From Chloroflexota bacterium (GTDB lineage Bacteria > Chloroflexota > UBA11872): a stretch of 48,203 nt of DNA. Where the stretch lies: assembly GCA_028873795.1 (NCBI GenBank), contig JAPPNP010000064.1:1-48203 (forward strand). Reading direction: 5' to 3'. Below the pieces are notes generated by a model. The model was not told the origin of the DNA. It saw only the letters and a list, made by a program, of their open reading frames with translations, and ran no database searches. The position numbers were made by a program, and so were the translations under genes. How positions within the stretch are numbered: position 1 is the first letter of the stretch; each line of letters opens with the position of its first letter. Positions 7,388-25,936 of this stretch are shown here, one piece after another.

Positions 7388-7613
7388 GATTCCTCCACGC
7401 GCGGCCTCGCCCCACCGCGATGCGCGGGGGTCGGCAGCGATTGCGAGGCGCCGTTCGAGCGGGCCAATTGCATGGCGGGATGATGCCTGCTTACGGGGAG
7501 CGGTGCCATAGCGCGTGCCGCGGTCCACCGCCAATGCGTCTGGTCGACGGAGTGACGTGCGGCAGGCGTCGTTGCAAGATACCGACAGCCGCTCGAGCCG
7601 AGATCCGCGCGAC

Positions 7614-8729
7614 GTGAAACACGACGAACCGCGATCCAGGGCGCGACGCGTGGTCGCATCGCGGCCGCCATCCAGTCCGGCCACCGCCAAATCCGCGAGC
7701 CTCGCGCGGTTCTACTGGCGGCGCCGACTGATTCCGGGCTTGCTCTTCTTGGTGGCGGTTTCGGCTGTTGGAGTGGTCGGATTCATCGTGATCGAGGAGA
7801 TGGCGCTGGTGGACGCCCTCTACATGGTTGTCATCACCCTCAGCACCGTGGGCTTCGCGGAGGTGCACACGCTGTCCACGGCAGGGCGCGTGTTCACGTC
7901 GGTGTTGATCGTGGCCGGCGTCGGTACACTCGCCTGGACGGCGGCGAACTATATCGAGTATCTCGCCGAAGGCCATCTGGGTGCACACTTTGCGCGCCGC
8001 CGACGCGCGAGGCTCCTTTCGCACATGCAGGGTCACTACATCGTCGGATCCTATGGCCGCGTCGGCGCGCGCATTGCTCAAGAGCTGCGCAACGACGGCT
8101 GCGACGTCGTGGTGATCGATGTCGACCCGGCGCAGGTTCAGACCGCCGCGGATTATGGTCTGGTGAGCATTGCCGATCGCGCTTCGTCGGATGCGGCGCT
8201 CACCGAGGCGGGCATCGAGCGCGCCGCCGCCTTCATTGTCGCCACCGACGACGACGCCGAAAACGTCTACGCGGTGCTGGCGGCTCGCGTGCTGGCGCCG
8301 AACGTGCCGGTCATCGCGCGCGCCGCATCGGATGAGGCGGTGCGGCGGTTGCAATCGGCTGGCGCCGCGCGCGTGTTTTCGCCGCCCATCGAGGGCGCGT
8401 TGAGCATGGTGGACTTCGTCCGGCGGCCCAACGTGCGAGATGTGCTCGACCAGCTGCTCGATCCCCACTCGCCTGGCCTGGACATCCGCGAAATGACCGT
8501 TCCGGGCGGCTCCGGGCTGATTGGCGAAACCGTAGACGCCCTGTCGCTTCAGGAGTTTGGGGTATCGATGTTGGCCCTTGTCCGGCAGGGACGCACGGAG
8601 ATGGCTCCGGCGACGGACTGTGTGCTCGAGGCCGGTGATGTGTTCGTGGTGGTGGGCGTTCCGGAAGAGCTGCAGCGCCTGTCCGAGCATCATGAGCTGC
8701 TCGGCGAGCAGCCCGGGCCCTCCGAGTAG
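7614..8729 (+). CDS. Two-helix potassium channel with RCK/TrkA regulatory domains
   Basis: A 371-residue channel of the MthK type. An N-terminal basic stretch leads to membrane helix 1 (LIPGLLFLVAVSAVGVVGF), a pore loop with filter TLSTVGFAE, then helix 2. A Rossmann-type RCK_N domain follows (HYIVGSYGRVGARIAQEL, then DVDPAQ), and an RCK_C domain (about 290-360) with DVFVVVG. The filter reads GFA where GYG or GFG is usual. The GTG at 7614 is a guess: the frame is open from a GTG at 7515, but those 33 residues look non-coding and neither site has a strong ribosome-binding site. The space between this gene and the divergent one shows no clear signals. Confidence 0.85.
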   Translation: MKHDEPRSRARRVVASRPPSSPATAKSASLARFYWRRRLIPGLLFLVAVSAVGVVGFIVIEEMALVDALYMVVITLSTVGFAEVHTLSTAGRVFTSVLIVAGVGTLAWTAANYIEYLAEGHLGAHFARRRRARLLSHMQGHYIVGSYGRVGARIAQELRNDGCDVVVIDVDPAQVQTAADYGLVSIADRASSDAALTEAGIERAAAFIVATDDDAENVYAVLAARVLAPNVPVIARAASDEAVRRLQSAGAARVFSPPIEGALSMVDFVRRPNVRDVLDQLLDPHSPGLDIREMTVPGGSGLIGETVDALSLQEFGVSMLALVRQGRTEMAPATDCVLEAGDVFVVVGVPEELQRLSEHHELLGEQPGPSE

Positions 8730-8789: not shown

Positions 8790-8804
8790 GCGTGCGGCAG
8801 AATG
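8790..8804 (+). promoter_or_regulatory. Conserved upstream element, cyclophilin copy 1
   Basis: GTGCGGCAGAATG, present before all six cyclophilin genes at nearly the same distance. CAGAAT resembles the TAGAAT box seen 8 bases before tRNA-Ala, so it probably is a -10 hexamer giving a leader of about 30 bases. No convincing -35 was found. Here the T of CAGAAT is 38 bases before the ATG. Confidence 0.5.
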
Positions 8805-8841
8805 GTTGGCAGAACGTGATGCGGTCGGGGAGAAGATCGTG

Positions 8842-9462
8842 ATGCGGCAAGCGGTACTCGTCGGGCTGGCTGCCCTGATGCTCATGATTGTGGCGGCGTG
8901 CGGCGAGCCCGAGCCGGAAGGCCCGCCGGTCTACGACGCCTACCCGGAGATGGAGATCGATCCGCTCCGGCCCTATAGCGTCACCTTCACCACCAGCGTC
9001 GGACGCATCAGCTTCGTCCTCAATCCCGAAGAGGCGCCGCTGGCCGTCAACAGCTTCATTTTCCTCGCCAATAGCGGCTATTACGACGGCGTGGCGTTTC
9101 ATCGGGTAGTCCCCGGCGTGCTCGCCGAGACGGGCGACGCCACGGGCACGGGCACGGGCAACCCGGGCTACACCTTCGAGGTCGAGCCACCGCAGCGGCC
9201 CTATGTGCGCGGTGGCATTGCCCTGGCCAATGACGGAACGCCGAATTCCAATGGATCGCGCTTCTTCTTCATCCTCGGCGACCTGGCGGGAAGCGCTGAG
9301 GCGCCGCATGAGTACACGGTCTTTGGCCATTACAAGGAAGACCACGCGCCGTCCTTGGCCACGCTCGACAAGATCGAAGCGGCCCAGGAAGAAGTCACGA
9401 TCCTGTCGCTGAAGGCCACGGAAGGCTGCCTGCCGAGCTGGGGCGGCTACGGCCCGTGCTAG
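8842..9462 (+). CDS. Cyclophilin-type peptidyl-prolyl isomerase lipoprotein, copy 1
   Basis: A 206-residue lipoprotein: signal peptide with lipobox VAAC (lipidated C20), a short acidic Pro-rich linker (EPEPEGPP), then a cyclophilin domain (about 37-190). Cyclophilin marks are FHRVVPG with the catalytic Arg at R88, TGTGNPGYTFEVE, RGGIALANDGTPNSNGS and FFFILGD. The residue matching Gln63 of human cyclophilin A is E96, and Phe60 is V93. The C-terminus has a Cys pair (EGCLPSWGGYGPC) that could form a disulfide outside the membrane. GGGGAGAAG lies about 6 bases before the ATG; a GTG directly upstream is also possible. First of six tandem copies. Confidence 0.9.
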   Translation: MRQAVLVGLAALMLMIVAACGEPEPEGPPVYDAYPEMEIDPLRPYSVTFTTSVGRISFVLNPEEAPLAVNSFIFLANSGYYDGVAFHRVVPGVLAETGDATGTGTGNPGYTFEVEPPQRPYVRGGIALANDGTPNSNGSRFFFILGDLAGSAEAPHEYTVFGHYKEDHAPSLATLDKIEAAQEEVTILSLKATEGCLPSWGGYGPC

Positions 9463-9610
9463 GACCGATTGGGGGCGGGCAGGTGAGCTGAGCCGCGATG
9501 GGCCGCGCGGCTGCGGATGATGGATCCCGGGCCATATGGAGAAATTCGAAAGATCCGGTCGGAAGGCGGATGGTCGTTGGAGTCCCGCCAGCTCCCAGGT
9601 TCAGTGAGGG

Positions 9611-9640
9611 GTGGATTCCCGCCTTCGCGGGAATGACGGA
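9611..9640. repeat. Short dispersed palindromic repeat, copy 1
   Basis: A 30-base element holding the hairpin ATTCCCGC-CTTC-GCGGGAAT (9615-9634). A second copy, differing at one base, is at 26061-26090. Similar hairpins occur as short intergenic repeats in many bacteria. This one lies in the gap between cyclophilin copies 1 and 2. Confidence 0.7.
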
Positions 9641-9698
9641 GGGTTACGCAAAGGTCTCCGTGCGGAGGGCTCGCTCGGTCTAGCAGGTTCCATGGCAA

Positions 9699-9711
9699 GT
9701 GCGGCAGAATG
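9699..9711 (+). promoter_or_regulatory. Conserved upstream element, cyclophilin copy 2
   Basis: GTGCGGCAGAATG, 38 bases before the ATG. It is preceded by CTCGGTCTAGCAGGT, which is also found before copy 4. Confidence 0.5.
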
Positions 9712-9748
9712 CTTGGCACACCGAGGGGCTGACGGTGAGGAGGGCATG

Positions 9749-10369
9749 ATGCGGCGAGTGACACTCCTTGGGCTGGTTGCCCTCATGCTCATCGCGGTGG
9801 CGGCGTGCGGCGAGGCGGAGCCGGAAGGGCCGCCGGTCTATGAGGCCTACCCACCGATGGGGATTGATCCGCTCCGGTCCTACAGCGTCGTCTTCACCAC
9901 CAGCGTCGGACGCCTCACCTTCCAGCTGCTTCCGGAAGAGGTGCCGCTGGCGGTCAACAGCTTCATTTTCTTGGCACGGGAGGGTTACTTCGACGGCGTG
10001 GCGTTTCATCGCATCGTCCCGGGAGTGCTGGCTGAATCCGGCGACGCGACGGGCACGGGCACCGGCAACCCGGGCTACACCTTCGAGGTGGAGCCGACGC
10101 AGCGGCCCTATGAACGCGGTGGCATCGCCCTGGCTAACGATGGGACGCCGAACTCCAACGGCTCACGGTTCTTCTTCATCCTCGGCGATCTCGCCGGAAG
10201 CGCCGAGGCGCCGCACGAGTACACGATCTTCGGCAGTCTGAAGCCGAATCACCCGCCGTCCGTAGCGACGCTCGGCAAGATCGAGGCCGCCCAGGAAGAG
10301 GTCATCATCCGGTCGCTGCAGGTCACCGAGGGATGTCTGCCGAGCCGGGGCAACTACGGGGCATGCTAG
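9749..10369 (+). CDS. Cyclophilin-type peptidyl-prolyl isomerase lipoprotein, copy 2
   Basis: 206 residues, same layout as copy 1: MRRVTLLGLVALMLIAVAAC lipoprotein signal, linker EAEPEGPP, cyclophilin fold, C-terminal Cys pair (EGCLPSRGNYGAC). Differences include FHRIVPGVLAESGD at the active site, AREGYFDG and the loop FGSLKPNHPP. GAGGAGGG ends 4 bases before this ATG; the ATG one codon earlier would be only one base away, so 9749 is preferred. The 286-base gap before it contains the short palindromic repeat and the conserved upstream element, suggesting its own transcript. Confidence 0.9.
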   Translation: MRRVTLLGLVALMLIAVAACGEAEPEGPPVYEAYPPMGIDPLRSYSVVFTTSVGRLTFQLLPEEVPLAVNSFIFLAREGYFDGVAFHRIVPGVLAESGDATGTGTGNPGYTFEVEPTQRPYERGGIALANDGTPNSNGSRFFFILGDLAGSAEAPHEYTIFGSLKPNHPPSVATLGKIEAAQEEVIIRSLQVTEGCLPSRGNYGAC

Positions 10370-10525
10370 GGCCGACTTCGGCCAACGCGTAGCTCGCTTC
10401 ATGGGTGCAGGCGCCATCCGAATGGGCGCGTGGCGCCGGCGAGTCGAGCCGATGGGCCGGGCGCTGCGGATGACGCGTCCTCGACCCGCATGGCGGATGC
10501 GGTACGTTCATCATGCCCCTGTCAG

Positions 10526-10538
10526 GTGCGGCAGAATG
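10526..10538 (+). promoter_or_regulatory. Conserved upstream element, cyclophilin copy 3
   Basis: GTGCGGCAGAATG, 37 bases before the ATG. Its upstream flank (TCATGCCCCTGTCAG) differs from the other copies, so the 13-base core is the conserved part. Confidence 0.5.
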
Positions 10539-10574
10539 GTAGGCGGACCCAGGGGCTGACAGGAGAAGCGCAGG

Positions 10575-11195
10575 ATGCGGCGAGTGACACTTCTTGGGCT
10601 GGTGGCCCTGATGCTCTTCGTCGTGACGGCGTGCGGCGAGGCGGAGCCGGAGGGGCCGCCGGTCTTCGAGGCCTACCCATCGATGGAAATCGATCTGCGC
10701 CGGTCCTACAGCGTCATCTTCACCACCAGCGTCGGACGCCTTACCTTCCAGCTGCTGCCGGAAGAGGCGCCGCTGGCGGTCAACAGCTTCATCTTCCTCG
10801 CCAACGAGGGCTACTACGACGGCGTCGCGTTTCATCGGGTAGTCCCCGGCGTGCTCGCTGAGACGGGCGACGCCACCGGAACGGGCACCGGCAATCCGGG
10901 CTACACCTTCGAGGTGGAGCAGCCGCAGCGGCCCTATGAACGTGGCGGCATCGCCCTGGCCAACGACGGGACGCCGAACTCCAACGGCTCGCGCTTCTTC
11001 TTCATCCTGGGCGACCTCGCGGGAAGCGCCGAGGCGCCGCACGCGTACACCGTCTTCGGCCATCTGAAGCCGGATCACGCGCCGTCGGTGGCCACGCTCG
11101 ACAAGATCGAGGCGGCGCAGGAAGAGGTCATCATCGTGTCGGTGAAGGCGACGGAGGGCTGCCTGCCGAGCGGCGGTCCCTTCCAGTGCTCGTGA
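10575..11195 (+). CDS. Cyclophilin-type peptidyl-prolyl isomerase lipoprotein, copy 3
   Basis: 206 residues with lipobox VTAC, the EAEPEGPP linker and a cyclophilin domain: FHRVVPGVLAETGD, TGTGNPGYTFEVEQPQRPY and FFFILGD. It is closest to copies 2 and 4. The C-terminus is EGCLPSGGPFQCS, with the Cys pair kept. GGAGAAGCGCAGG precedes the ATG. The domain is about the size of a minimal bacterial cyclophilin, and the lipid anchor places it on the outside of the cytoplasmic membrane. Confidence 0.9.
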   Translation: MRRVTLLGLVALMLFVVTACGEAEPEGPPVFEAYPSMEIDLRRSYSVIFTTSVGRLTFQLLPEEAPLAVNSFIFLANEGYYDGVAFHRVVPGVLAETGDATGTGTGNPGYTFEVEQPQRPYERGGIALANDGTPNSNGSRFFFILGDLAGSAEAPHAYTVFGHLKPDHAPSVATLDKIEAAQEEVIIVSVKATEGCLPSGGPFQCS

Positions 11196-11248
11196 CGGGT
11201 CCTAGACCCAGATTCGGGGCGCGCTCGGTCTAGCAGGTCCCATGGCAG

Positions 11249-11261
11249 GTGCGGCAGAATG
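11249..11261 (+). promoter_or_regulatory. Conserved upstream element, cyclophilin copy 4
   Basis: GTGCGGCAGAATG, 39 bases before the ATG. The 24 bases before it match those of copy 2 almost exactly. Confidence 0.5.
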
Positions 11262-11299
11262 TCGGGGCGGAGCCGGGGCCTGACGCGAAGGAGAGCGTG

Positions 11300-11920
11300 A
11301 TGCGCCGAGCGATAGCGGTTAGCCTGGCTGCCCTAGCTCTTGTGGCCGCCGTGGCCTGCGGTGAGGCGGAGCCGGAAGGACCTCCGGTCTACGACGCCTA
11401 CCCACCGATGACGATCGATCCGCTCCGCTCCTACAGCGTCATTTTCACGACCAGCGTCGGACGCATCAGCTTCGTGCTTTATCCGGAAGAGGCGCCGCTG
11501 GCGGTCAACAGCTTCCTTTTCCTCGCCAACGAGGGCTACTTTGACGGCGTCGCGTTTCATCGGGTGGTCCCCGGCGTGCTTGCCGAAACGGGAGACGCCA
11601 CCGGAACGGGTACCGGCAATCCCGGCTACACCTTCGAGGTGGAGCCGCCGCAGCGGCCCTATGAACGCGGCGGTATCGCCCTGGCCAACGACGGCAGGCC
11701 AAACTCCAACGGCTCGCGGTTTTTCTTCATCCTGGGCGACCTCGCGGGAAGTGCCGAGGCGCCGCACGAGTACACGGTCTTCGGCCATCTGAAGCCGAAT
11801 CACGCGCCGTCGGTGACCACGCTCGAGAAGATCGAGGCGGCGCAAGAAGAGGTCACCATCCTGTCGCTGAAGGCGACAGAGGGCTGCCTGCCGAGCGGCG
11901 GTCCCTACCAGTGCTCATGA
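11300..11920 (+). CDS. Cyclophilin-type peptidyl-prolyl isomerase lipoprotein, copy 4
   Basis: 206 residues. Lipoprotein signal MRRAIAVSLAALALVAAVAC, linker EAEPEGPP, cyclophilin motifs FHRVVPGVLAETGD and RGGIALANDGRPNSNGS, and C-terminal EGCLPSGGPYQCS. The signal peptide differs more from copies 2 and 3 than the catalytic domain does. AAGGAG lies 6 bases before the ATG; an open frame of 17 codons upstream includes the conserved -10-like element and is not coding. Its 3' end and downstream flank match the remnant after copy 5. Confidence 0.9.
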   Translation: MRRAIAVSLAALALVAAVACGEAEPEGPPVYDAYPPMTIDPLRSYSVIFTTSVGRISFVLYPEEAPLAVNSFLFLANEGYFDGVAFHRVVPGVLAETGDATGTGTGNPGYTFEVEPPQRPYERGGIALANDGRPNSNGSRFFFILGDLAGSAEAPHEYTVFGHLKPNHAPSVTTLEKIEAAQEEVTILSLKATEGCLPSGGPYQCS

Positions 11921-11973
11921 CGGATCCTGGACCCGCCGAAGGGTCGCGCGAGGTCTAGGAGGCCCCATGGCAC

Positions 11974-11986
11974 GTGCCGCAGAATG
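11974..11986 (+). promoter_or_regulatory. Conserved upstream element, cyclophilin copy 5
   Basis: GTGCCGCAGAATG, one mismatch to the others, 38 bases before the ATG. Confidence 0.45.
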
Positions 11987-12023
11987 CTGCCCGGGCCCAG
12001 GTGCCGACGGGCGAAAGGGCGCC

Positions 12024-12626
12024 ATGCGGCGAGCGGTGATGGTCGGACTAGCGGCCTTGATCGTGGTCGTCGTTGCGGCGTGCGGCGAGCCGGAGCCAGA
12101 AGGGCCTCCGGTCTACGACGTTTACCCGCCGATGGAGGAGCTCCGGGGCTACAGCGTCTCCTTCGCCACCAGCGTCGGGCGCATCCGATTCGCGATGTTG
12201 CCGCAGGAAGCTCGGCTGGCGGTCAACAGCTTCATCTTCCTGATCAACGAGGGCTACTACGACGGCCTGGCGTTTCACCGGGTTGTTCCCGGCCTGCTCG
12301 CCGAATCGGGCGACGTGACGGGCACGGGCACCGGCAACGCGGGCTACACCTTCGAGATCGAGCCGCCGCAGCGGCCCTACGCGCGCGGGCAGATTGCCCT
12401 GGCCAACGACGGGACGCCGAACTCCAACGGCTCGCGCTTCTTCTTCATCCTCGGCGATCTGGCCGGAAGCGCCGAGGCGCCGCACGAGTACACGATCATC
12501 GGCCATATCAGGGAAACCGATGCGGTGTCTCAGGCGACGTTGGACAAGATCGAGGCCGCGGAGGAAGAGGTCACCATCCGGTCGACGGTAGCGACGCCTC
12601 AGGGCCGGCCTTGGACTGGTGCGTGA
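12024..12626 (+). CDS. Cyclophilin-type peptidyl-prolyl isomerase lipoprotein, copy 5, altered C-terminus
   Basis: 200 residues with lipobox VAAC and linker EPEPEGPP. It belongs with copy 6 in a second subgroup: INEGYYDGLAFHRVVPGL, TGTGNAGYTFEIEPPQRPY, HEYTIIGHIRE. The linker region before the domain is shorter (YPPMEELRGYS). The C-terminus departs from all the others: after TIRSTVAT it reads PQGRPWTGA and stops, losing the Cys pair. The stop overlaps an 18-base direct repeat of the gene's own sequence (12561-12578 and 12625-12642), so a 64-base duplication or recombination has shifted the frame. The core fold should be intact. Confidence 0.85.
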   Translation: MRRAVMVGLAALIVVVVAACGEPEPEGPPVYDVYPPMEELRGYSVSFATSVGRIRFAMLPQEARLAVNSFIFLINEGYYDGLAFHRVVPGLLAESGDVTGTGTGNAGYTFEIEPPQRPYARGQIALANDGTPNSNGSRFFFILGDLAGSAEAPHEYTIIGHIRETDAVSQATLDKIEAAEEEVTIRSTVATPQGRPWTGA

Positions 12627-12693
12627 GGAAGAGGTCACCATCGTGTCGCTGAAGGCGACGGAGGGCTGCCTGGCGAGCGGCGGTCCCTACTAA
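12625..12693 (+). pseudogene. Orphan 3' end of a cyclophilin lipoprotein gene
   Basis: Read from 12625, 22 codons encode EEVTIVSLKATEGCLASGGPY and then TAA. This matches the C-terminus of copy 4 (EEVTILSLKATEGCLPSGGPY). The following bases, ATGCTCATGACG and CTCCTGGACCC, continue to match the flank of copy 4. It has no start and sits directly after the stop of copy 5, so it is the tail of a former copy left by recombination. Confidence 0.75.
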
Positions 12694-12755
12694 TGCTCAT
12701 GACGACTCCTGGACCCACATGGGGGGCACGCGAGGTCTAGCCGGTTTCAGGGCAG

Positions 12756-12768
12756 GTGCGGCAGAATG
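12756..12768 (+). promoter_or_regulatory. Conserved upstream element, cyclophilin copy 6
   Basis: GTGCGGCAGAATG, 38 bases before the ATG, with GAGGTCTAG further upstream as in copy 5. Confidence 0.5.
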
Positions 12769-12805
12769 TCGGGTGGGCCCAGGTGCCGATGGGGGGAAGG
12801 GCGCC

Positions 12806-13426
12806 ATGCGGCGAGCGGTGATGGTCGGACTAGCTGCCTTGATCCTGGTCGTCGTTGCGGCGTGCGGCGAATCGGAGCCGGAAGGGCCTCCGGTCTACGA
12901 CGCCTACCCGCCGATGGAGGTTGAAGATCAGCGGGGCTATAGCGTCACCTTCACCACGAGCGTCGGGCGCATCCGATTCGTGATGTTGCCGCAGGAAGCA
13001 CTGCTGGCGGTCAACAGCTTCATCTTCCTGATCAACGAGGGCTACTACGACGGCCTCGCGTTTCATCGAGTGGTCCCCGGCCTGTTCGCCGAATCGGGCG
13101 ACGCGACGGGCACGGGCACCGGCAACGCGGGCTACACCTTTGAAATCGAGCCACCGCAGCGGCCCTACGCGCGCGGACTGATTGCCCTGGCCAACGACGG
13201 CACGCCGAACTCCAACGGATCGCGGTTCTTCTTCATCCTGGGCGATCTGGCCGGAAGCGCCGAGGCGCCGCACGAATACACGATCTTCGGCTATGTCAGG
13301 GAAAACCATGCGGTGTCGTGGGCGACGTTGGACAAGATCGAGGCCGCGGAGGAAGAGGTCACCATCCTGTCGACGGTCGCGACGGAAGGCTGCCTGCCAG
13401 CCTGGATGGGCTTCGGCCGGTGTTGA
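12806..13426 (+). CDS. Cyclophilin-type peptidyl-prolyl isomerase lipoprotein, copy 6
   Basis: 206 residues, the closest relative of copy 5 over signal peptide (MRRAVMVGLAALILVVVAAC) and catalytic domain (FHRVVPGLFAESGD, GNAGYTFEIE), but with an intact C-terminus (EGCLPAWMGFGRC). The linker is ESEPEGPP. The loop FGYVRENHAVSW is specific to it. A strong GGGGGGAAGGG lies just upstream of the ATG. It is the last of the array and is convergent with tRNA-Ala 47 bases downstream. Confidence 0.9.
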   Translation: MRRAVMVGLAALILVVVAACGESEPEGPPVYDAYPPMEVEDQRGYSVTFTTSVGRIRFVMLPQEALLAVNSFIFLINEGYYDGLAFHRVVPGLFAESGDATGTGTGNAGYTFEIEPPQRPYARGLIALANDGTPNSNGSRFFFILGDLAGSAEAPHEYTIFGYVRENHAVSWATLDKIEAAEEEVTILSTVATEGCLPAWMGFGRC

Positions 13427-14153: not shown

Positions 14154-14459
14154 CCCGCTCTCGTGGTCTGGGCGATCTGGTGCAGGATGCTCGAAACGAA
14201 TGTGCGAAGTGCTACCATCCGCGCAAGCTGGAAAGGCAGCGTCTTTGCGGAGGTTGGAGAAGCGCAGACGATTGTTCTCCGGCGGACCCAGGCTGATCGG
14301 ACGGGCATTTCGGTCGATCGCGAGGCCAATGTCAGGCTCGGCACGGCGAATGCGTGACGGCAGCTTGGGGAGAAGGGGACTACCTCGATGGACGCGGACA
14401 CCCAGTGGAAAGGGTCGCGGCGGACACTCTTCCAGGCCACCCGGATAGGATCAGAGGGA
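14154..14459 (+). other. Intergenic region before the STAS gene
   Basis: No gene is seen here. It holds a TACCAT box (14213-14218), identical to the likely -10 of tRNA-Ile, which would give a leader of 170-240 bases. Near its end AGAAGGGG (14371-14378) precedes an in-frame ATG at 14388, a possible alternative start of the STAS protein. Confidence 0.4.
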
Positions 14460-14798
14460 ATGAACACGAAGTGGGAATCGCATGACGGCGCCATTGTTGC
14501 CACGGTCGACGGCCGCGTCGACGGTGCCAATGCCCATGAGTTTCAGGAAGCACTGGAAGCCGTGATCAAGGCGAGCGAAAGTGCCGTGATCCTCGATTTC
14601 GAGCAGCTTTCCTACATCAGCAGTGCCGGTCTCCGGGTGGTCTTGCTGGCCGCGAAGGAGCTCCGCAAGCAAAGCAAGCAGTTCGCCGTCTGCTCGCTGG
14701 CGGGTTCAATCCTCGAGGTATTCAAGATCAGTGGGTTCGATCAGATCATCCCCGTTCATTCGACGCAGGCCGAGGCAATCGCCGCAGTCAACGCCTGA
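14460..14798 (+). CDS. STAS-domain anti-sigma factor antagonist (RsbV/SpoIIAA-like)
   Basis: A 112-residue single STAS domain. The signature LDFEQLSYISSAGLRVVLLA carries the conserved serine pair; one of these is phosphorylated by an RsbW-type kinase and dephosphorylated by a PP2C phosphatase in the partner-switch mechanism. In its unphosphorylated form such a protein binds the kinase and releases the kinase's target. The ATG at 14460 (AGAGGGA upstream) gives the compact family length; ATG 14388, with AGAAGGGG at good spacing, would add 24 residues of no clear fold. The next gene, 77 bases downstream, encodes the matching phosphatase. Confidence 0.9.
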   Translation: MNTKWESHDGAIVATVDGRVDGANAHEFQEALEAVIKASESAVILDFEQLSYISSAGLRVVLLAAKELRKQSKQFAVCSLAGSILEVFKISGFDQIIPVHSTQAEAIAAVNA

Positions 14799-14875
14799 TT
14801 GGTCCCCGCGCTTGTCCGGGCGCGTTCATCCAGGGCCGCATGGGTAGTGCAAGGTAGTCAGAACGGCATTTGGGC

Positions 14876-16045
14876 ATGACGGATCGGCCATGCAAAATCC
14901 TCGTCGTTGACGACGAGCCGGATCTCGAGCCACTCGTGATGCAGCGCATGCGCCGCAGCATCCGGCGCGGCAAATACGAGTTCGTCTTCGCCCACAACGG
15001 CGTGGAGGCGCTCGAGCGGCTGAACGAGGACGAGGACATCGACATGGTCCTCTCCGACATCAACATGCCGCAGATGGACGGGCTGACGCTGCTGGACCAG
15101 ATTCCCAAGGTCAACCCCAACATTCGCTCGGTGATCATCTCCGCTTACGGCGACATGAAGAACATTCGCACGGCAATGAATCGCGGCGCGTTCGACTTTG
15201 TCACCAAGCCGGTCGACTTCAACGACTTGCAGGTGACGATCGATCGGACGCTGCAGCACATGAACGAGTGGCGCGCGGCCTTGGCGGCCCGCGACAAGCT
15301 GGTCTCGCTGCAAAACGAGCTCGACGTCGCGAGCAAGATGCAGCAATCCATCCTCCCGCGCGAATTCCCCAAACGCGACGACTACGAAGTCTTCGCCAAC
15401 ATGGCGCCGGCGCGAAACGTCGGCGGCGACTTTTACGACCTGCTGCAGTTGGACGACGGTCGAATCGGACTTGCCGTCGCCGACGTCTCGGACAAGGGCG
15501 TGCCGGCCGCGCTGTTCATGATGTCAACGCGGACGCTGCTGAAAGGCGCGGCCATTGGCCACGAAGGCCCGGGCGAGGTGCTGCGCGAAGTCAATGACCT
15601 GCTCAACGAGAGCAACGAGTCCGCGATGTTCGTGACGGTCCTCTACGGCGTGTACGACCCGGCGACTCGGGAATTCACCTATGCGAACGGCGGTCACAAC
15701 ACCCCGCTCGTGGTGCACGCGGACGGCAGCTCGACGGAGCTGCCGCTGACCGGCGGCGTCGCTCTGGGCGTGATGCCGGAGTTGCCGTACGACCAGGGGA
15801 CCGTGACCCTGGCCCACGACGACACGGTGGTGCTCTACACCGACGGCGTCACCGAGGCCATGAACGCGGAGGGCGAGGAATTCGGGGTCGACCGGCTCCA
15901 GGAGACTTTTGCCGCAAGTCCCCCGCAAGACGCCCAGCAGGCCAATCAGACCGTGTTCGAAGCCGTTCATGCATTCGCGGGCGAAACGCCGCAGTCGGAC
16001 GACGTCACCTGCCTGGTCTTCCGTCCACGCGAGGCGGCACTGTGA
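14876..16045 (+). CDS. Response regulator with PP2C (SpoIIE/RsbU-type) phosphatase output
   Basis: 389 residues. An N-terminal receiver domain (about 5-125) has the acidic pair D12/D13, phosphoacceptor D61 in LSDINMPQMDG, a conserved switch Ser (IISAYGD) and Lys in TKPVDF. A short coiled-coil (about 135-160) leads to the PP2C domain with APARNVGGDFYD, ADVSDKGVPAALFM, YANGGHN, LYTDGVTEAMN and SDDVTCLV, which supply the metal-binding Asp residues. Phosphorylation of D61 is expected to control removal of phosphate from the STAS partner. A TTG two codons upstream is possible; the ribosome-binding site is weak. It overlaps the kinase gene by 4 bases. Confidence 0.93.
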   Translation: MTDRPCKILVVDDEPDLEPLVMQRMRRSIRRGKYEFVFAHNGVEALERLNEDEDIDMVLSDINMPQMDGLTLLDQIPKVNPNIRSVIISAYGDMKNIRTAMNRGAFDFVTKPVDFNDLQVTIDRTLQHMNEWRAALAARDKLVSLQNELDVASKMQQSILPREFPKRDDYEVFANMAPARNVGGDFYDLLQLDDGRIGLAVADVSDKGVPAALFMMSTRTLLKGAAIGHEGPGEVLREVNDLLNESNESAMFVTVLYGVYDPATREFTYANGGHNTPLVVHADGSSTELPLTGGVALGVMPELPYDQGTVTLAHDDTVVLYTDGVTEAMNAEGEEFGVDRLQETFAASPPQDAQQANQTVFEAVHAFAGETPQSDDVTCLVFRPREAAL

Positions 16046-16455
16046 GCGCTCGGTTGTCACTCACGGTGAAGACGCAGGCCGACGAACTGGCGCGAATCAC
16101 CGCCGCCGTTGAAGACTTCGGCGAGCAGCAGGATTGGCCGCCGGATCTCGTCTTCCGCGTGAACCTGGCTCTCGAGGAGCTGGGCATGAATATCATGAAT
16201 CACGGCTATGACGCGGGGCTCCACGAGTTTGAAATCACGCTCATCTCGGAGGACGATTCGCTGACCATCGAGATCGTCGACGGCGGCCGTCCATTCGATC
16301 CGCTGCACGACGCGAAGCAACCCGACGTGGGCGCGGCCATTGAAGATCGACCGATTGGCGGTCTCGGCGTCTACTTTGTGCGCGAGATGATGGATGAGAT
16401 GCACTACAAGCGCGAGCGGGGAAAGAATCACTTGACGCTCGTCTCGCGACGATGA
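16042..16455 (+). CDS. RsbW/SpoIIAB-like serine kinase (anti-sigma factor)
   Basis: 137 residues of GHKL ATPase fold. The N-box is LALEELGMNIMNHGYD, the G1-like motif is EIVDGGRPFDPL, and the G2-like loop is PIGGLGVYFVREMMDEM. These are the ATP-binding elements of anti-sigma kinases that phosphorylate STAS antagonists. The GTG start overlaps the phosphatase stop (GTGA), so stoichiometric expression is likely. No sigma factor gene is nearby, so the final target may be encoded elsewhere or may not be a sigma factor. Confidence 0.9.
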   Translation: MSARLSLTVKTQADELARITAAVEDFGEQQDWPPDLVFRVNLALEELGMNIMNHGYDAGLHEFEITLISEDDSLTIEIVDGGRPFDPLHDAKQPDVGAAIEDRPIGGLGVYFVREMMDEMHYKRERGKNHLTLVSRR

Positions 16456-21111: not shown

Positions 21112-22545
21112 GTGGATTTCGACACCTACGAGCTCGACCCTAGGGTCTACGACGAGATGCTCTTGCCCGACGGCGCGCCACGGGAGCACTGCCGGCCGCT
21201 GGTTGAGGCGCTGCGCCGCATGTCGTCCGAGGAACTGAGCGGCGTCCAAGAACGCGCCACCCGGTCGTTTTCGCATGAGGGCATTTCGTTCACGGTCTAC
21301 GGCGAGGCCGAGGCCCAGGAGCGAATCATTCCGATCGATTGCCTGCCTCGGCTGCTCTCCGGCGCCGACTGGAAGCTGATCGAAGCCGGGCTCACGCAGC
21401 GGCTCAATGCGCTCAATCTCTTTCTGGAGGACATCTACAACGAAGCCCGCATCGTCGCGGACGGCGTGATCCCGACGGACCTGATCCGAGGATGTCCGCA
21501 GTTCCGAATCGACATGCGCGGCTTTTCCCCGCCGCACGGCGTGTGGGTGGCGATCTGCGGCACCGATATCGTGCGCACCAACGACGGTTTTCTCGTGCTG
21601 GAGGACAACCTGCGGGTGCCGTCGGGCGTGTCCTACATGATTGCGAACCGGAAGGTGATCAAGGCCGGCCTGCGCCGCATCTACCGCGCCGCGCGGGTGC
21701 GTGAGGTGGAGCACTATGGGCGCCTCCTCCAAGCCACGCTGCGCGAGCTGGCGCCGGCCGGTCGGTCCGATCCTTGCATTGCCCTCCTGACGCCCGGCGT
21801 CTACAACGCCGCCTTCTACGAGCACATGTTCCTCGCCGGCGAGATCGGGGCGGAGCTGGTGGAAGGCCGCGACCTGGTGGTGAACGACGGCGTGGTCTAC
21901 ATGCGCACGACGGCCGGGCTGCGTCGCGTGGACGTGATCTATCGGCGCATCGACGATGACTTCCTCGATCCCCTGGTCTTTCGGCCGGATTCGCTGCTTG
22001 GCGTGCCCGGGCTGCTGCACGCCTGCCGGCGAGGCAACGTTTCGGTGGTGAACGCCCCCGGCACGGGCGTTGCCGATGACAAGAGCGTCTACGCCTACGT
22101 GCCGGACATGATTCGCTACTACCTGAGCGAAGATCCGATCCTGGCGAACGTCGAAACGCACCTCTGCCGCCGCCCGGAAGGCCTCGAGTACACGCTGGAC
22201 AACCTGGAGAGGCTGGTGGTCAAGCGCGTGGGGGGATCCGGGGGCTACGGCATGCTGGTGGGGCCCCACGCGACGCCCGCGGAGCGCGCGGCATACGCCG
22301 ACGAGGTGCGGGCGAACCCCGCGGACTTCATCGCCCAACCGACGCTGGCGCTATCGCGTTCACCGTGTCTCATCGAGGGGCGCTTCGAGCCGCGGCACGT
22401 GGACTTGCGGCCCTTCGTCCTCCGTGGCCGGCAAACGCGCATGGTCCCGGGGGCCTTTTGCCGCGTGGCGCTGCGTCGGGGAAGCCTGGTGGTGAACTCC
22501 AGCCAGGGCGGCGGCGGCAAGGACCTCTGGGTCCTCAACGACTGA
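21112..22545 (+). CDS. Circularly permuted ATP-grasp protein
   Basis: 477 residues of the circularly permuted ATP-grasp type 2 family (DUF404/DUF407). Blocks seen: YDEMLLPDGAPREHCRPL, PIDCLPRLLSGADW, ALNLFLEDIYNEARIV, LVLEDNLRVPSGVSYM, YVPDMIRYYLSEDPIL, LVVKRVGGSGGYGMLVGP and FIAQPTLALSRSPC. The family is predicted to ligate peptides or amino groups with ATP and is usually encoded next to alpha-E and transglutaminase-like genes; both are present downstream, after the ammonium transporter. GTG start; GAGG lies about 10 bases upstream. The substrate is unknown. Confidence 0.92.
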   Translation: MDFDTYELDPRVYDEMLLPDGAPREHCRPLVEALRRMSSEELSGVQERATRSFSHEGISFTVYGEAEAQERIIPIDCLPRLLSGADWKLIEAGLTQRLNALNLFLEDIYNEARIVADGVIPTDLIRGCPQFRIDMRGFSPPHGVWVAICGTDIVRTNDGFLVLEDNLRVPSGVSYMIANRKVIKAGLRRIYRAARVREVEHYGRLLQATLRELAPAGRSDPCIALLTPGVYNAAFYEHMFLAGEIGAELVEGRDLVVNDGVVYMRTTAGLRRVDVIYRRIDDDFLDPLVFRPDSLLGVPGLLHACRRGNVSVVNAPGTGVADDKSVYAYVPDMIRYYLSEDPILANVETHLCRRPEGLEYTLDNLERLVVKRVGGSGGYGMLVGPHATPAERAAYADEVRANPADFIAQPTLALSRSPCLIEGRFEPRHVDLRPFVLRGRQTRMVPGAFCRVALRRGSLVVNSSQGGGGKDLWVLND

Positions 22546-22639
22546 GGAAACCGAGGTCCCGACCGGGCGGCGGCGTTAGCCATTCTTGGTAGCAATAATT
22601 ACACTCGCCTCGCCAGCCGTCCCTCGCCGAAGGACCGCC

Positions 22640-24022
22640 ATGCGTGCTGCCGTGAGCTCCCTCGTCCGACCGTATCCGGGACGCCTTGTCCTCATCCTGC
22701 TGTTGGCGCTTGCCATCCCGCTGCTGATCCCGAATGTGGCGCGCGCCGCAGTGTCGGAAGAGGCGACGTTCGTCTTCAACACGTTCGCGTTCCTGATTTG
22801 GGGAGCGCTGGTGATGTTCATGTGCGCGGGCTTCACCATGCTCGAATCCGGGTCGGTACGCACCAAGAACGCCTCGATGATCTGCCTCAAGAACATCGGC
22901 ATCTATTCCATCGCCGGACTCGCATACTTCATCGTCGGCTACAACCTGATGTACGTGGACGTCGGCTCGGTGATCGGTTCGTTCACGTTCCTCTACGGAC
23001 CGTCGAGCGCCGAGCTTGACTTGCTCGGCGGCGATGACGGCGCGGTTTCCAGCGTCGTTGCCAACGGCTACTCGTCCATGTCCGACTGGTTCTTCCAGAT
23101 GGTGTTCGTGGCGACCGCTGCTTCAATCGTGTCGGGCGCGTTGGCCGAACGGGTCAAGATGTGGTCGTTCTTTCTGTTCACGCTGCTGCTGACGGCCTTC
23201 ATTTACCCCATCGTGGGCGCGTGGACGTGGGGCGGCGGTTGGCTGTCCGAGATGGGATTTCAGGACTTCGCCGGTTCCACCATCGTCCACAGCGTGGGCG
23301 GCTGGGCGGCCCTGGCCGGGATCCTGGTCGTGGGGCCGCGGCTGGGCAAGTTCCGCAAGGACGGCACCGCCCGCGCGACTCCGCCCTCGAACATTCTGAT
23401 CGTGACGCTGGGCGTGTTCATCCTCTGGCTCGGGTGGTTCGGGTTCAACGGCGGCTCGCAGCTGGCCTTGGGCAGCGCCTTCGACGCCGTGGCTATGAGC
23501 CACGTGCTGGTGAACACCAACCTGGCGGCGGCGGCGGGCGTCGTGGCCGCGATCGCGATCTCACGCTCGGTCATGGGGCGGACGGACCTTTTCGTCGGTC
23601 TCAACGGCGCCATTGCCGGTCTGGTTTCGATCACCGCGGGCCCTGATATCGTTGAGCACTACTGGGCCATCATCATCGGCGCCATTGGCGCGGTTCTGTG
23701 CACCCTCGGGCTCAAGCTGCTGGAAAAGCTGAAGCTGGACGATGTGGTCGGGGCCGTTCCCGCCCACCTCTTCGCCGGTATTTGGGGAACCCTGGCCGCG
23801 GCGATTGTCGGCGGCGCCATGTTCCACGTGCAGCTGATCGGCGTGCTGGCCGTGGCCGCCTTCGTGTTTGTGGTCTCCTACCTCGTGTGGCGCCTTATCG
23901 ACCTGACGATCAGCGCCCGCGTATCGCGCCAGGTCGAGCAACTGGGCCAGGACGCCGGGGAGCTGGGAATCGAGGCTTACCCCGAATTCGTCCTCATGCC
24001 GGAGGAGTTCGACGAAGACTAG
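22640..24022 (+). CDS. amt: Ammonium transporter
   Basis: 460 residues. An N-terminal cleaved-type signal helix (about 10-35, ending ARAAVSEE) and roughly eleven membrane helices. Amt hallmarks: GFTMLESGSVRTKN, DFAGSTIVHSVGG with the first pore histidine, WFGFNGGSQLAL, and GAVPAHLFAGIWGTLAA with the second. The C-terminal tail is cytoplasmic and acidic (VLMPEEFDED). GAAGGA lies 6 bases before the ATG; an in-frame GTG 18 codons upstream would spoil the signal helix. No glnK/PII gene is adjacent, which is unusual. It lies between ATP-grasp and alpha-E genes, all on one strand. An AT-rich patch near 22590 may hold a promoter. Confidence 0.93.
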   Translation: MRAAVSSLVRPYPGRLVLILLLALAIPLLIPNVARAAVSEEATFVFNTFAFLIWGALVMFMCAGFTMLESGSVRTKNASMICLKNIGIYSIAGLAYFIVGYNLMYVDVGSVIGSFTFLYGPSSAELDLLGGDDGAVSSVVANGYSSMSDWFFQMVFVATAASIVSGALAERVKMWSFFLFTLLLTAFIYPIVGAWTWGGGWLSEMGFQDFAGSTIVHSVGGWAALAGILVVGPRLGKFRKDGTARATPPSNILIVTLGVFILWLGWFGFNGGSQLALGSAFDAVAMSHVLVNTNLAAAAGVVAAIAISRSVMGRTDLFVGLNGAIAGLVSITAGPDIVEHYWAIIIGAIGAVLCTLGLKLLEKLKLDDVVGAVPAHLFAGIWGTLAAAIVGGAMFHVQLIGVLAVAAFVFVVSYLVWRLIDLTISARVSRQVEQLGQDAGELGIEAYPEFVLMPEEFDED

Positions 24023-24032
24023 ACCGGTTGGA

Positions 24033-24057
24033 CGCCCGCCGCTCGCGGCGGCGGGCG
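24033..24057 (+). terminator. GC-rich hairpin after the ammonium transporter gene
   Basis: Perfect 10-base arms CGCCCGCCGC and GCGGCGGGCG around TCGCG, 10 bases after the amt stop. No T-tract follows, so it may attenuate rather than end transcription into the alpha-E gene. Confidence 0.5.
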
Positions 24058-24104
24058 CCGGCCGGCCGCGGCGTGACCGTCGCGAGTAGTCGGGCCTAAG
24101 TCGC

Positions 24105-25073
24105 ATGCTGGTGCGGAGCGCTCAGGGTCTCTACTGGATGAGCCGCTACCTGGAGCGCGCCCGGCGGCTCTGCCGGCTGCTGCAGTTGCAGACGGAGTCC
24201 CTGGTCGACCGGCCCGCTCGCGAGATTCACTTCGGCTGGAGCCGGATCTATGCGAGCGTCAATCGAAATCCGCCGGCTGGGCGCATCGAGCTGCTCGGCA
24301 GCGACGACTACACCCTGGCCGACTCCTACACGCTGGCCGGCGACCTGACGTTCGAACGCTCCAATCCCGACTCGGTGTGGAGCTGTTTCGACCAGGGGCG
24401 GGAAAACGCCCGTCAGATTCGTCAATCCATCAGCACGCCGATGTGGACCCAATTGAACCTGGCCTACCTGCGCCTCCAGGCGTTGGAGATGCCGGATATC
24501 TGGGCGATCTCACCCGAGAGCTTCTATGCCGACACGGTGGCGCAGATCGACACCTTCGTGGGAGTGGCGGCCGCCACGATGTACCGGGGCGAAGGCTGGC
24601 GCTTCATGCAACTCGGGCGATTCATCGAGCGGGCGCAACTGCTTGCCGCCGTGCTCGTGGCGCAGCTCACCGCGGAGCAGGAGGTCGAAGAGGCTTCAGA
24701 TGCGGATTGGACCGGCTTGCTGCGCCTCTGCCACGCGGTCGAGGTCTACAACCGCCGCTTCAGCGTGGCGGTGCAGCCGCGCCAGGTGCTGGACCTGCTG
24801 GTCACCGACCCGCGTCTGCCGGACTCGCTGGGCCGATCGATTGACCGGGCCGGGGAGGAGATCGAGGCGATCGGCCCGGGTCCCGACCCGGACTCCAGCG
24901 GCGCGCTGCAACGCCTGGCCGGTCGAATCGGCGGCGTCGTTCACTACCAATGGCCCGATCATGACGACTGCCACGCGCTCCTCGACCAGGTGCGCACCCA
25001 CTGCTATGAGCTTCACGATCGGGTGGCGACCGCGTACTTCGACTATGCGATCGAAGACGCCCCCGCGAACTGA
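24105..25073 (+). CDS. Alpha-E domain protein (DUF403)
   Basis: 322 residues, all-helical. The start (LVRSAQGLYWMSRYLERARRL) and the motifs SIDRAGEEIEAIG, MWTQLNLAYLRL and GWRFMQLGRFIERAQLL are typical of the alpha-E family, whose members carry a conserved Glu-rich helical core. Function is unknown, but it almost always accompanies circularly permuted ATP-grasp and transglutaminase proteins. No strong ribosome-binding site is seen at the ATG. The stop codon overlaps the next ATG by one base (TGATG). Confidence 0.92.
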   Translation: MLVRSAQGLYWMSRYLERARRLCRLLQLQTESLVDRPAREIHFGWSRIYASVNRNPPAGRIELLGSDDYTLADSYTLAGDLTFERSNPDSVWSCFDQGRENARQIRQSISTPMWTQLNLAYLRLQALEMPDIWAISPESFYADTVAQIDTFVGVAAATMYRGEGWRFMQLGRFIERAQLLAAVLVAQLTAEQEVEEASDADWTGLLRLCHAVEVYNRRFSVAVQPRQVLDLLVTDPRLPDSLGRSIDRAGEEIEAIGPGPDPDSSGALQRLAGRIGGVVHYQWPDHDDCHALLDQVRTHCYELHDRVATAYFDYAIEDAPAN

Positions 25074-25936
25074 TGGACGGCGCGTCGTTCGCGATCGAGC
25101 ACGTCACTCGCTACCACTATTCGTCGCCCGTCATTGGCTGCGTGATGTCGCTGTGCCTCAAGCCGTGCGACGACGCCGGCCAGCGGCTGCTGGAATTCGA
25201 CATCGACACCGACCCTCCAGCTCCGGTGAACGAGGAGCGGGACAGCTTTGCCAACACGAAGCACGTGCTCAACGTCCATCGGGACCATGAATCCCTCGCC
25301 ATCACCGCTCGCTCGCGCGTCGATTCGGCGCCGCCGGCCACGCTGCCGGAATCGCTGGGTGCGAGCGCCTGGGACGAGATTCGTCAATGGCGAGACTCGT
25401 TCACGCTCTGGGACTTCACCCGGCCCAGCGCGCTGACCGAGCCCTCGCCGGCGCTTGCGGCCCTCACGGCTCGACTCGGCATCGAGCCGGCAGGCGATCC
25501 GCTGCACGCCGTGCAACGGCTCTCGAACACCCTCTACCGCAGCTTCGACTATGTGCCGGGCAGCACGACCGCGGTTTCGCCGGTCGACCACATCCTGGAA
25601 ACCGGCCGCGGAGTCTGCCAGGACTACGCCCACGCCATGATTGCCATTGCGCGCTCCTGGGGGGTGCCGACGCGCTATGTGTCCGGCTACCTCTACGAGC
25701 CCGAACCGGACGGGGCCGCGCACTCCGCCAGCCACGCCTGGGTCGAGTGCCTGCTGCCCGATCTGGGCTGGGTCGGATTCGACGCGACCAACGACAGTCT
25801 CGCCGGTCCGGACCACATCCGGCTGGCGGTTGGGCGGGACTATCGCGACGTGGCCCCGACCAGCGGCATCTTTCGCGGCGGCGGCGAGAGCCGCATCGAG
25901 GTCGAGGTGCGGGTCCGTCCCCATCAGCCAGGCTGA
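25073..25936 (+). CDS. Transglutaminase-like cysteine peptidase
   Basis: 287 residues. An N-terminal beta domain with FAIEHVTRYHYSSPV (bacterial transglutaminase N-terminal region) is followed by a papain-like transglutaminase core with C182 in GRGVCQDYAHAMI, H221 in SHAWVECLLPDLGW and D237 in FDATND, the complete catalytic triad. No signal peptide, so it acts in the cytoplasm. In the ATP-grasp/alpha-E context such proteins are predicted to hydrolyse or transfer peptides. It overlaps the alpha-E gene by one base and is the last gene of the unit. Confidence 0.93.
   Translation: MDGASFAIEHVTRYHYSSPVIGCVMSLCLKPCDDAGQRLLEFDIDTDPPAPVNEERDSFANTKHVLNVHRDHESLAITARSRVDSAPPATLPESLGASAWDEIRQWRDSFTLWDFTRPSALTEPSPALAALTARLGIEPAGDPLHAVQRLSNTLYRSFDYVPGSTTAVSPVDHILETGRGVCQDYAHAMIAIARSWGVPTRYVSGYLYEPEPDGAAHSASHAWVECLLPDLGWVGFDATNDSLAGPDHIRLAVGRDYRDVAPTSGIFRGGGESRIEVEVRVRPHQPG

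Follow-up and report, generated by a model that had tools for sequence, protein, structure and literature searches.

The 48,203-nucleotide stretch analyzed here (hereafter the window; it is one entire contig, JAPPNP010000064.1, of the 3.18 Mb, 89-contig assembly GCA_028873795.1 of a Chloroflexota bacterium of lineage UBA11872) carries six tandem genes for cyclophilin-domain lipoproteins, all on the plus strand between positions 8842 and 13426, and we found them to belong to a family that, almost certainly, underwent a genus-specific expansion together with a change of its proline-binding pocket. As judged from the residues that line it, the pocket of the array proteins and of two dispersed lineages, C24 and C64c, is rebuilt in a manner seen in no other cyclophilin that we examined. 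We favor the reading that these are neofunctionalized surface cyclophilins whose isomerase activity is weak or altered and which act by binding client peptides, to which we assign a probability of roughly 60%.

In the numbering of human CypA, all 29 array proteins found in the six genomes of this genus of uncultured bacteria, as well as the C24 and C64c lineages, carry valine or leucine at position 60, leucine or phenylalanine at 61, glutamate at 63, and arginine at 111. In a tree of 56 proteins, 36 with the rebuilt pocket (the 29 array proteins plus the C24 and C64c lineages) and 20 close relatives with the canonical pocket, the rebuilt clade was monophyletic (support 100/98). E63 and R111 were present in 36/36 of its members and Q63 and Q111 in 20/20 of the canonical relatives, making Q63E and Q111R two perfect switches with a single residue on either side; F60 was likewise kept in 0/36. 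Most members share further fixed changes, which cluster within or next to the pocket (57, 61, 98, 100, 114, and 121-124). Among the residues expected of an active isomerase, the catalytic R55 was retained in 36/36 rebuilt-clade proteins, while F60, M61, Q63, and Q111 were replaced; within the array, F113 is kept in all proteins, A101 in all but four, and N102 nearly always. In copy 1, the rebuilt stretch V93-L94-A95-E96 (CypA F60-M61-C62-Q63) is encoded at 9118..9129 and R140 (CypA Q111) at 9259..9261, both on the plus strand. The copies in the window read VLAE, LLAE, or LFAE at this site and lack the Phe-Met-x-Gln catalytic motif of SlrA/PpiA-type cyclophilins. By contrast, the canonical F, M, Q, and Q at 60, 61, 63, and 111 are retained by other paralogues in the same genomes (C64a/b, C78, and C75) and by the gene of the sister genus.

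Beyond the genus, both Q63 and Q111 were kept in 72/72 cyclophilin loci from diverse bacteria, although these loci were chosen by similarity to the array and rare cases may exist elsewhere. A search at the DNA level with the pattern PG[VL][LF]xE[ST]GDxTGxG yielded matches in 6/400 genomes of the phylum, exactly the six of the genus and exactly these genes, while the reversed control pattern had 0 matches in the same 400 genomes; here too, the pattern is narrow enough that rare cases may lie outside its reach.

The original prediction had warned that the copies might be an assembly artefact or that relatives might all carry such an array. Upon searching related genomes and counting copies, as had been proposed, we found the array in 5/5 other genomes of the genus (5, 5, 5, 4, and 4 copies in G001 to G005, hence 29 array genes including the window), whereas it was not present in 13/13 sister-genus genomes nor elsewhere in the phylum sample of 55 non-genus Chloroflexota genomes. 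All relatives within the genus therefore share the array, which is a feature at the level of the genus and not an ordinary trait. Correspondingly, Pfam counts gave 10-12 cyclophilin genes per genome in the genus, 0-1 in the 13 sister-genus genomes, and 0-3 in 42 other genomes of the phylum. In terms of the types defined below, the genes of G001 run A-B-C-D-E, as do those of the window apart from one extra copy; G002 and G003 have A-C-B-D-E, while G004 and G005 have A-B-C-E. A K+ channel gene adjoins the array in G001, G004, and G005, and G002 and G003 gave no good match to it; tRNA-Ile/tRNA-Ala flank the array in G001, G003, and G005. With orthologues in five separately assembled genomes and purifying selection at the codon level, chance and assembly error are ruled out, and the six-copy array is neither an assembly artefact nor a local oddity. 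That it is decaying sequence, or assembled in error, might be suspected from the relaxed, tail-less copy 5 and the broken gene-4-like tail behind it, but this is hardly credible: across six genomes the remaining copies are all intact and subject to purifying selection, their 15-23% protein difference from copy 1 is too large for assembly duplicates, and G001 and G005 share the flanks (K+ channel upstream, tRNA-Ala/tRNA-Ile downstream).

Within the window, the layout agreed with the original prediction, which had described six genes of near-equal length (five of 206 residues, one of 200) with a lipoprotein signal, an EPEGPP linker, a cyclophilin domain, a C-terminal cysteine pair in five of six, and separate upstream elements. 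Each protein begins with a hydrophobic segment that ends in a lipobox-like (A/V)(A/T)CGE or similar motif with an invariant Cys20 (Cys20-Gly-Glu in 6/6), a signal of the kind found in SlrA/PpiA-type surface lipoprotein cyclophilins; the signal peptide and lipidation were judged by eye from this motif. The EPEGPP linker is present in each of the six copies, and all six contain a PF00160 domain (83-94 bits; cut-off 21.7). The three copies tested against the NCBIfam equivalogs of E. coli-type PpiA/PpiB scored only 26-51 bits against cut-offs of 297-308. Copies 2-6 share 77-85% protein identity with copy 1. All on the plus strand, the copies are type A (copy 1, 8842..9462, 206 aa, tail CLPSWGGYGPC, with an orthologue in 6/6 genomes of the genus), type B (copy 2, 9749..10369, 206 aa, CLPSRGNYGAC), type C (copy 3, 10575..11195, 206 aa, CLPSGGPFQCS), type D (copy 4, 11300..11920, 206 aa, CLPSGGPYQCS, not found in G004 and G005), a local duplicate of type E termed e (copy 5, 12024..12626, 200 aa, on a long branch that indicates relaxed constraint and without the cysteine pair that the other five have), and type E (copy 6, 12806..13426, 206 aa, CLPAWMGFGRC). 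An AlphaFold2 model of copy 1 adopts the cyclophilin beta-barrel fold with a pLDDT of >90 over most of the domain and low values in the signal peptide and tail; compared with solved cyclophilins it reached Z of about 20-23, with human PPIL2, PPIL3, and CWC27 and mycobacterial PpiA among the closest structures, while the best sequence match in the PDB was 7l6z (S. pneumoniae).

The array copies fall into five ancient types, A to E, on which purifying selection is strong; every type has a conserved C-terminal tail of its own that bears a cysteine pair. In the tree, most copies cluster by type and not by genome, and the split between copies 1-4 and copies 5-6 that had been noticed before is visible. 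Support is good for types A, B, and E, the last with copy 5 branching outermost, and weak for type C; no single clade unites the four type D proteins, so that their assignment rests mainly on the tail. Mean dN/dS between orthologues was 0.05-0.23 (NG86, mature region), indicating purifying selection. Paralogues within a genome had a mean dS of 0.34-0.67 (the e-E pair excepted), mostly above the ortholog mean dS of 0.14-0.43, as expected if duplication preceded speciation. In nearest-neighbour tests along the gene, the closest sequence to the last 31 codons was the same type in another species for 28/28 genes, whereas for the upstream region and the first 35 codons it was the same type in just 16/28, indicating that recombination has reshuffled the 5' ends but not the tails. 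The residues that distinguish the types lie in the N-terminal strand, at a few other positions, and chiefly in the tail (199-206), while the pocket region is nearly invariant.

These data bear on the question, raised by the original prediction, of whether the amplification reflects dose, diversity, or a non-enzymatic role. Under a pure dose scheme, the array would supply one protein in quantity and its copies would have diverged by drift; the almost identical pocket surface of all types, the tandem layout, and copy 5 as one recent local duplicate would suit it. We nevertheless regard it as quite improbable, because the copies are old orthologous types that predate the species split and have kept type-specific tails (28/28) at a low ortholog omega (0.05-0.23); copy number is moreover steady at 4-6, and reshuffling between copies occurs mainly at the 5' ends. 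The evidence hence favors kept diversity over simple dose, and the rebuilt catalytic pocket, which had escaped the first reading, newly supports a non-enzymatic or altered-enzyme role.

Copy 5 qualifies the notion of a six-gene amplification: the six genes are real, yet the conserved unit is five genes, copy 5 being a species-specific, recent, and relaxed duplicate. Its branch length is 0.14 compared to 0.006 for copy 6, and its omega to type E is ~0.27. Positions 11846-12138, which cover the tail of gene 4, the spacer, and the head of gene 5, recur as an 87% copy at 12628-12920. The latter segment includes a fossil of the tail of a type-D gene, situated between copy 5 and copy 6 (12628..12700, plus strand; repeat families D13 and D14), a broken type-D-like tail that differs from the sequence in which copy 5 itself terminates. 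We read this duplication as, most plausibly, the scar left when an unequal crossover yielded an extra type-E gene, copy 5, without its tail.

The separate upstream elements could be delimited to TGCGGCAGAATG, which sits 40-49 nt before the start of 29/29 array genes, with each of its twelve bases identical in 28 or 29 of the 29 and with variable flanking bases. On the plus strand of the window, at a distance of about 45 nt from each ATG, it lies at 8793..8804 (copy 1), 9700..9711 (copy 2), 10527..10538 (copy 3), 11250..11261 (copy 4), 11975..11986 (copy 5, as TGCCGCAGAATG, with one change), and 12757..12768 (copy 6); C24 and C64c, too, have this sequence or its core GCGGCAGAAT upstream. The idea that it is a regulator site specific to this family was rejected, since it also precedes a likely obg gene and most of its other copies in the genome look like chance. 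At that gene (G000:C4:11096, locus L158), which we take to be an obg GTPase from its sequence MPDSTANFF..., the element TGCGGCAGAAT stands 38 nt upstream, hinting at a core promoter motif of the genus. The element is thus more likely to belong to the core promoter than to be a special site for a regulator. As a scan for sigma-70 promoters and terminators found none, its suggested promoter role draws on position and conservation; the upstream elements would fit separate transcription of each array copy.

We propose the following course of events. An ancestral lipoprotein cyclophilin, of which the single canonical gene of the sister genus and C75 in the present genome would be survivors, was duplicated repeatedly; in one descendant lineage the proline-binding pocket would have been rebuilt (F60V/L, M61L/F, Q63E, and Q111R, with changes at 98, 100, 114, and 121-124), and this lineage may then have multiplied into the tandem types A to E and the dispersed C24 and C64c. 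A promoter-like element of its own probably drives each array gene, and the protein, probably exported and lipidated at Cys20, would sit on the outer face of the cytoplasmic membrane via the flexible EPEGPP linker. Within the pocket, E63 may pair with R111, with the catalytic R55, or with both, replacing the Gln63/Gln111 network and weakening or altering isomerase activity. Previous work on CypA showed that alanine substitution of R55, F60, Q63, or H126 abolishes isomerase but not chaperone activity (PMC6068286), simulations of CypA showed R55 hydrogen-bonded to Q63 (PMC2643488), and human cyclophilins with altered pockets that are inactive as isomerases can still bind a proline substrate (PMC2911226). 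Weak or altered isomerase activity is accordingly the somewhat more probable outcome on the basis of the pocket residues, and the chances of a peptide-binding or holdase role are about even. Since the pocket is nearly invariant between types, it may bind one common class of peptides, as a holdase or docking site, while the type-specific tails suggest distinct partners or positions for the paralogues, conferred by a C-terminal loop that is probably closed by a disulphide; the latter is suggested by the conserved cysteine pair.

Several observations weigh against this proposal. With R55 invariant and A101, N102, and F113 retained by nearly all array proteins, residual isomerase activity is quite possible, and streptococcal cyclophilins without Trp121 remain active (PMC11853100). 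The differing length of the 121-124 loop makes its alignment uncertain, the low-confidence model of the C-terminal tail lends the disulphide loop no support, and surface anchoring is a candidate feature read from signal-peptide and lipidation motifs. The same retained residues, together with strong purifying selection and the precedent of the Lactococcus surface cyclophilin PpiA, which has both isomerase and chaperone activity (PMC3307742), would suit ordinary active extracytoplasmic foldases in which the pocket changes retune substrate choice and differently tailed paralogues serve different envelope clients. We consider this rather unlikely, as F60 and Q63, both needed for the isomerase activity of CypA (PMC6068286), are replaced in 36/36 proteins and as the window's genome has retained four paralogues with the canonical pocket beside them, suggesting a division of labour. 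A more far-reaching version of peptide binding, which we put forward tentatively, is a surface display system on a cyclophilin scaffold without isomerase function, in which the Glu63-Arg111 charge pair would create a fixed peptide-binding site and the cysteine-closed loops would recognize distinct partners, possibly a host or neighbour molecule; if true, an enzyme family would here have been converted, across a whole bacterial genus, into a set of binding proteins.

The four canonical paralogues in the window's genome are C64a, C64b, C78, and C75. The tandem genes C64a/b (G000:C64:6396-7900, locus L122) make up another pair of cyclophilin lipoproteins; the two are nearly identical and have the canonical pocket. 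A pair of this type occurs in 6/6 genomes of the genus, and its tails also contain a cysteine pair. C75 and the canonical lipoprotein cyclophilin of the sister genus (G006-G018) share the lipoprotein layout with the array and form the tree group adjoining the expanded family, but they differ in being single genes with the F60-M61-Q63-Q111 pocket, without the EPEGPP linker and without the C-terminal cysteine pair. An open frame after the dispersed paralogue C24 (L121:3310-3906) gives, from its sequence, the impression of a MOSC-domain-like protein. Next to the array in the window lie the K+ channel gene with TrkA domains upstream (7515-8729, plus strand) and tRNA-Ala, tRNA-Ile, and a glyoxalase-like gene downstream. 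The called start of the channel gene is too early, the true start probably being a GTG at ~7614; that the gene is a pseudogene in relatives was considered and rejected, as the stops precede the conserved start. Just downstream of the array, at 14388-16455 (plus strand), a STAS protein, a response regulator with SpoIIE phosphatase, and an RsbW-like kinase make up a partner-switching module, and 21112-25933 (plus strand) holds genes for a circularly permuted ATP-grasp, an Alpha-E, and a transglutaminase protein; an ammonium transporter gene (22586-24022) separates the ATP-grasp gene from the latter two.

As enzymes, cyclophilins show high conservation, and no locus examined outside the genus departed from the Gln63/Gln111 pair. 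A pocket that was rebuilt once, and kept and multiplied at the predicted surface beside canonical copies, may offer a natural test of which residues serve catalysis and which serve binding. It may also bear on the role of extracytoplasmic cyclophilins in bacteria, which is poorly known; an L. lactis ppiA mutant, for instance, had no obvious phenotype (PMC3307742).

Surface cyclophilins are already known, and so are inactive ones from a virus genus and from the spliceosome, while the literature searched contained no bacterial tandem set of surface cyclophilins that spans a genus and shares a Glu/Arg pocket. The Gram-positive surface cyclophilins (SlrA of S. pneumoniae, PpiA of L. lactis, and that of S. 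pyogenes) resemble the array proteins in their exported cyclophilin domain, PpiA of L. lactis being surface-exposed (PMC3307742) and SlrA extracellular (PMC11853100). However, SpnSlrA and SpyPpiA carry Phe, Met, and Gln at CypA positions 60, 61, and 63 and are active isomerases (PMC11853100), whereas the array proteins have these residues replaced and occur as 4-6 tandem paralogues. The Mimivirus-genus cyclophilins (mimiCYN) are likewise a genus-restricted lineage with altered catalytic residues, and a representative lacks isomerase activity (PMC6068286); they differ in being viral, in carrying insertions, and in having nearly all 13 catalytic residues changed, while the array keeps R55 and others, shows a focused change, and is lipoprotein-like. 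Also comparable are the human isomerase-inactive proteins CWC27/SDCCAG10, PPIL2, and PPIL6, which combine a changed pocket with a kept fold and are thought still to bind proline peptides (PMC2911226), with CWC27 and PPIL2 among the closest structures to the copy 1 model; these carry another set of substitutions and are neither arranged in an array nor lipidated.

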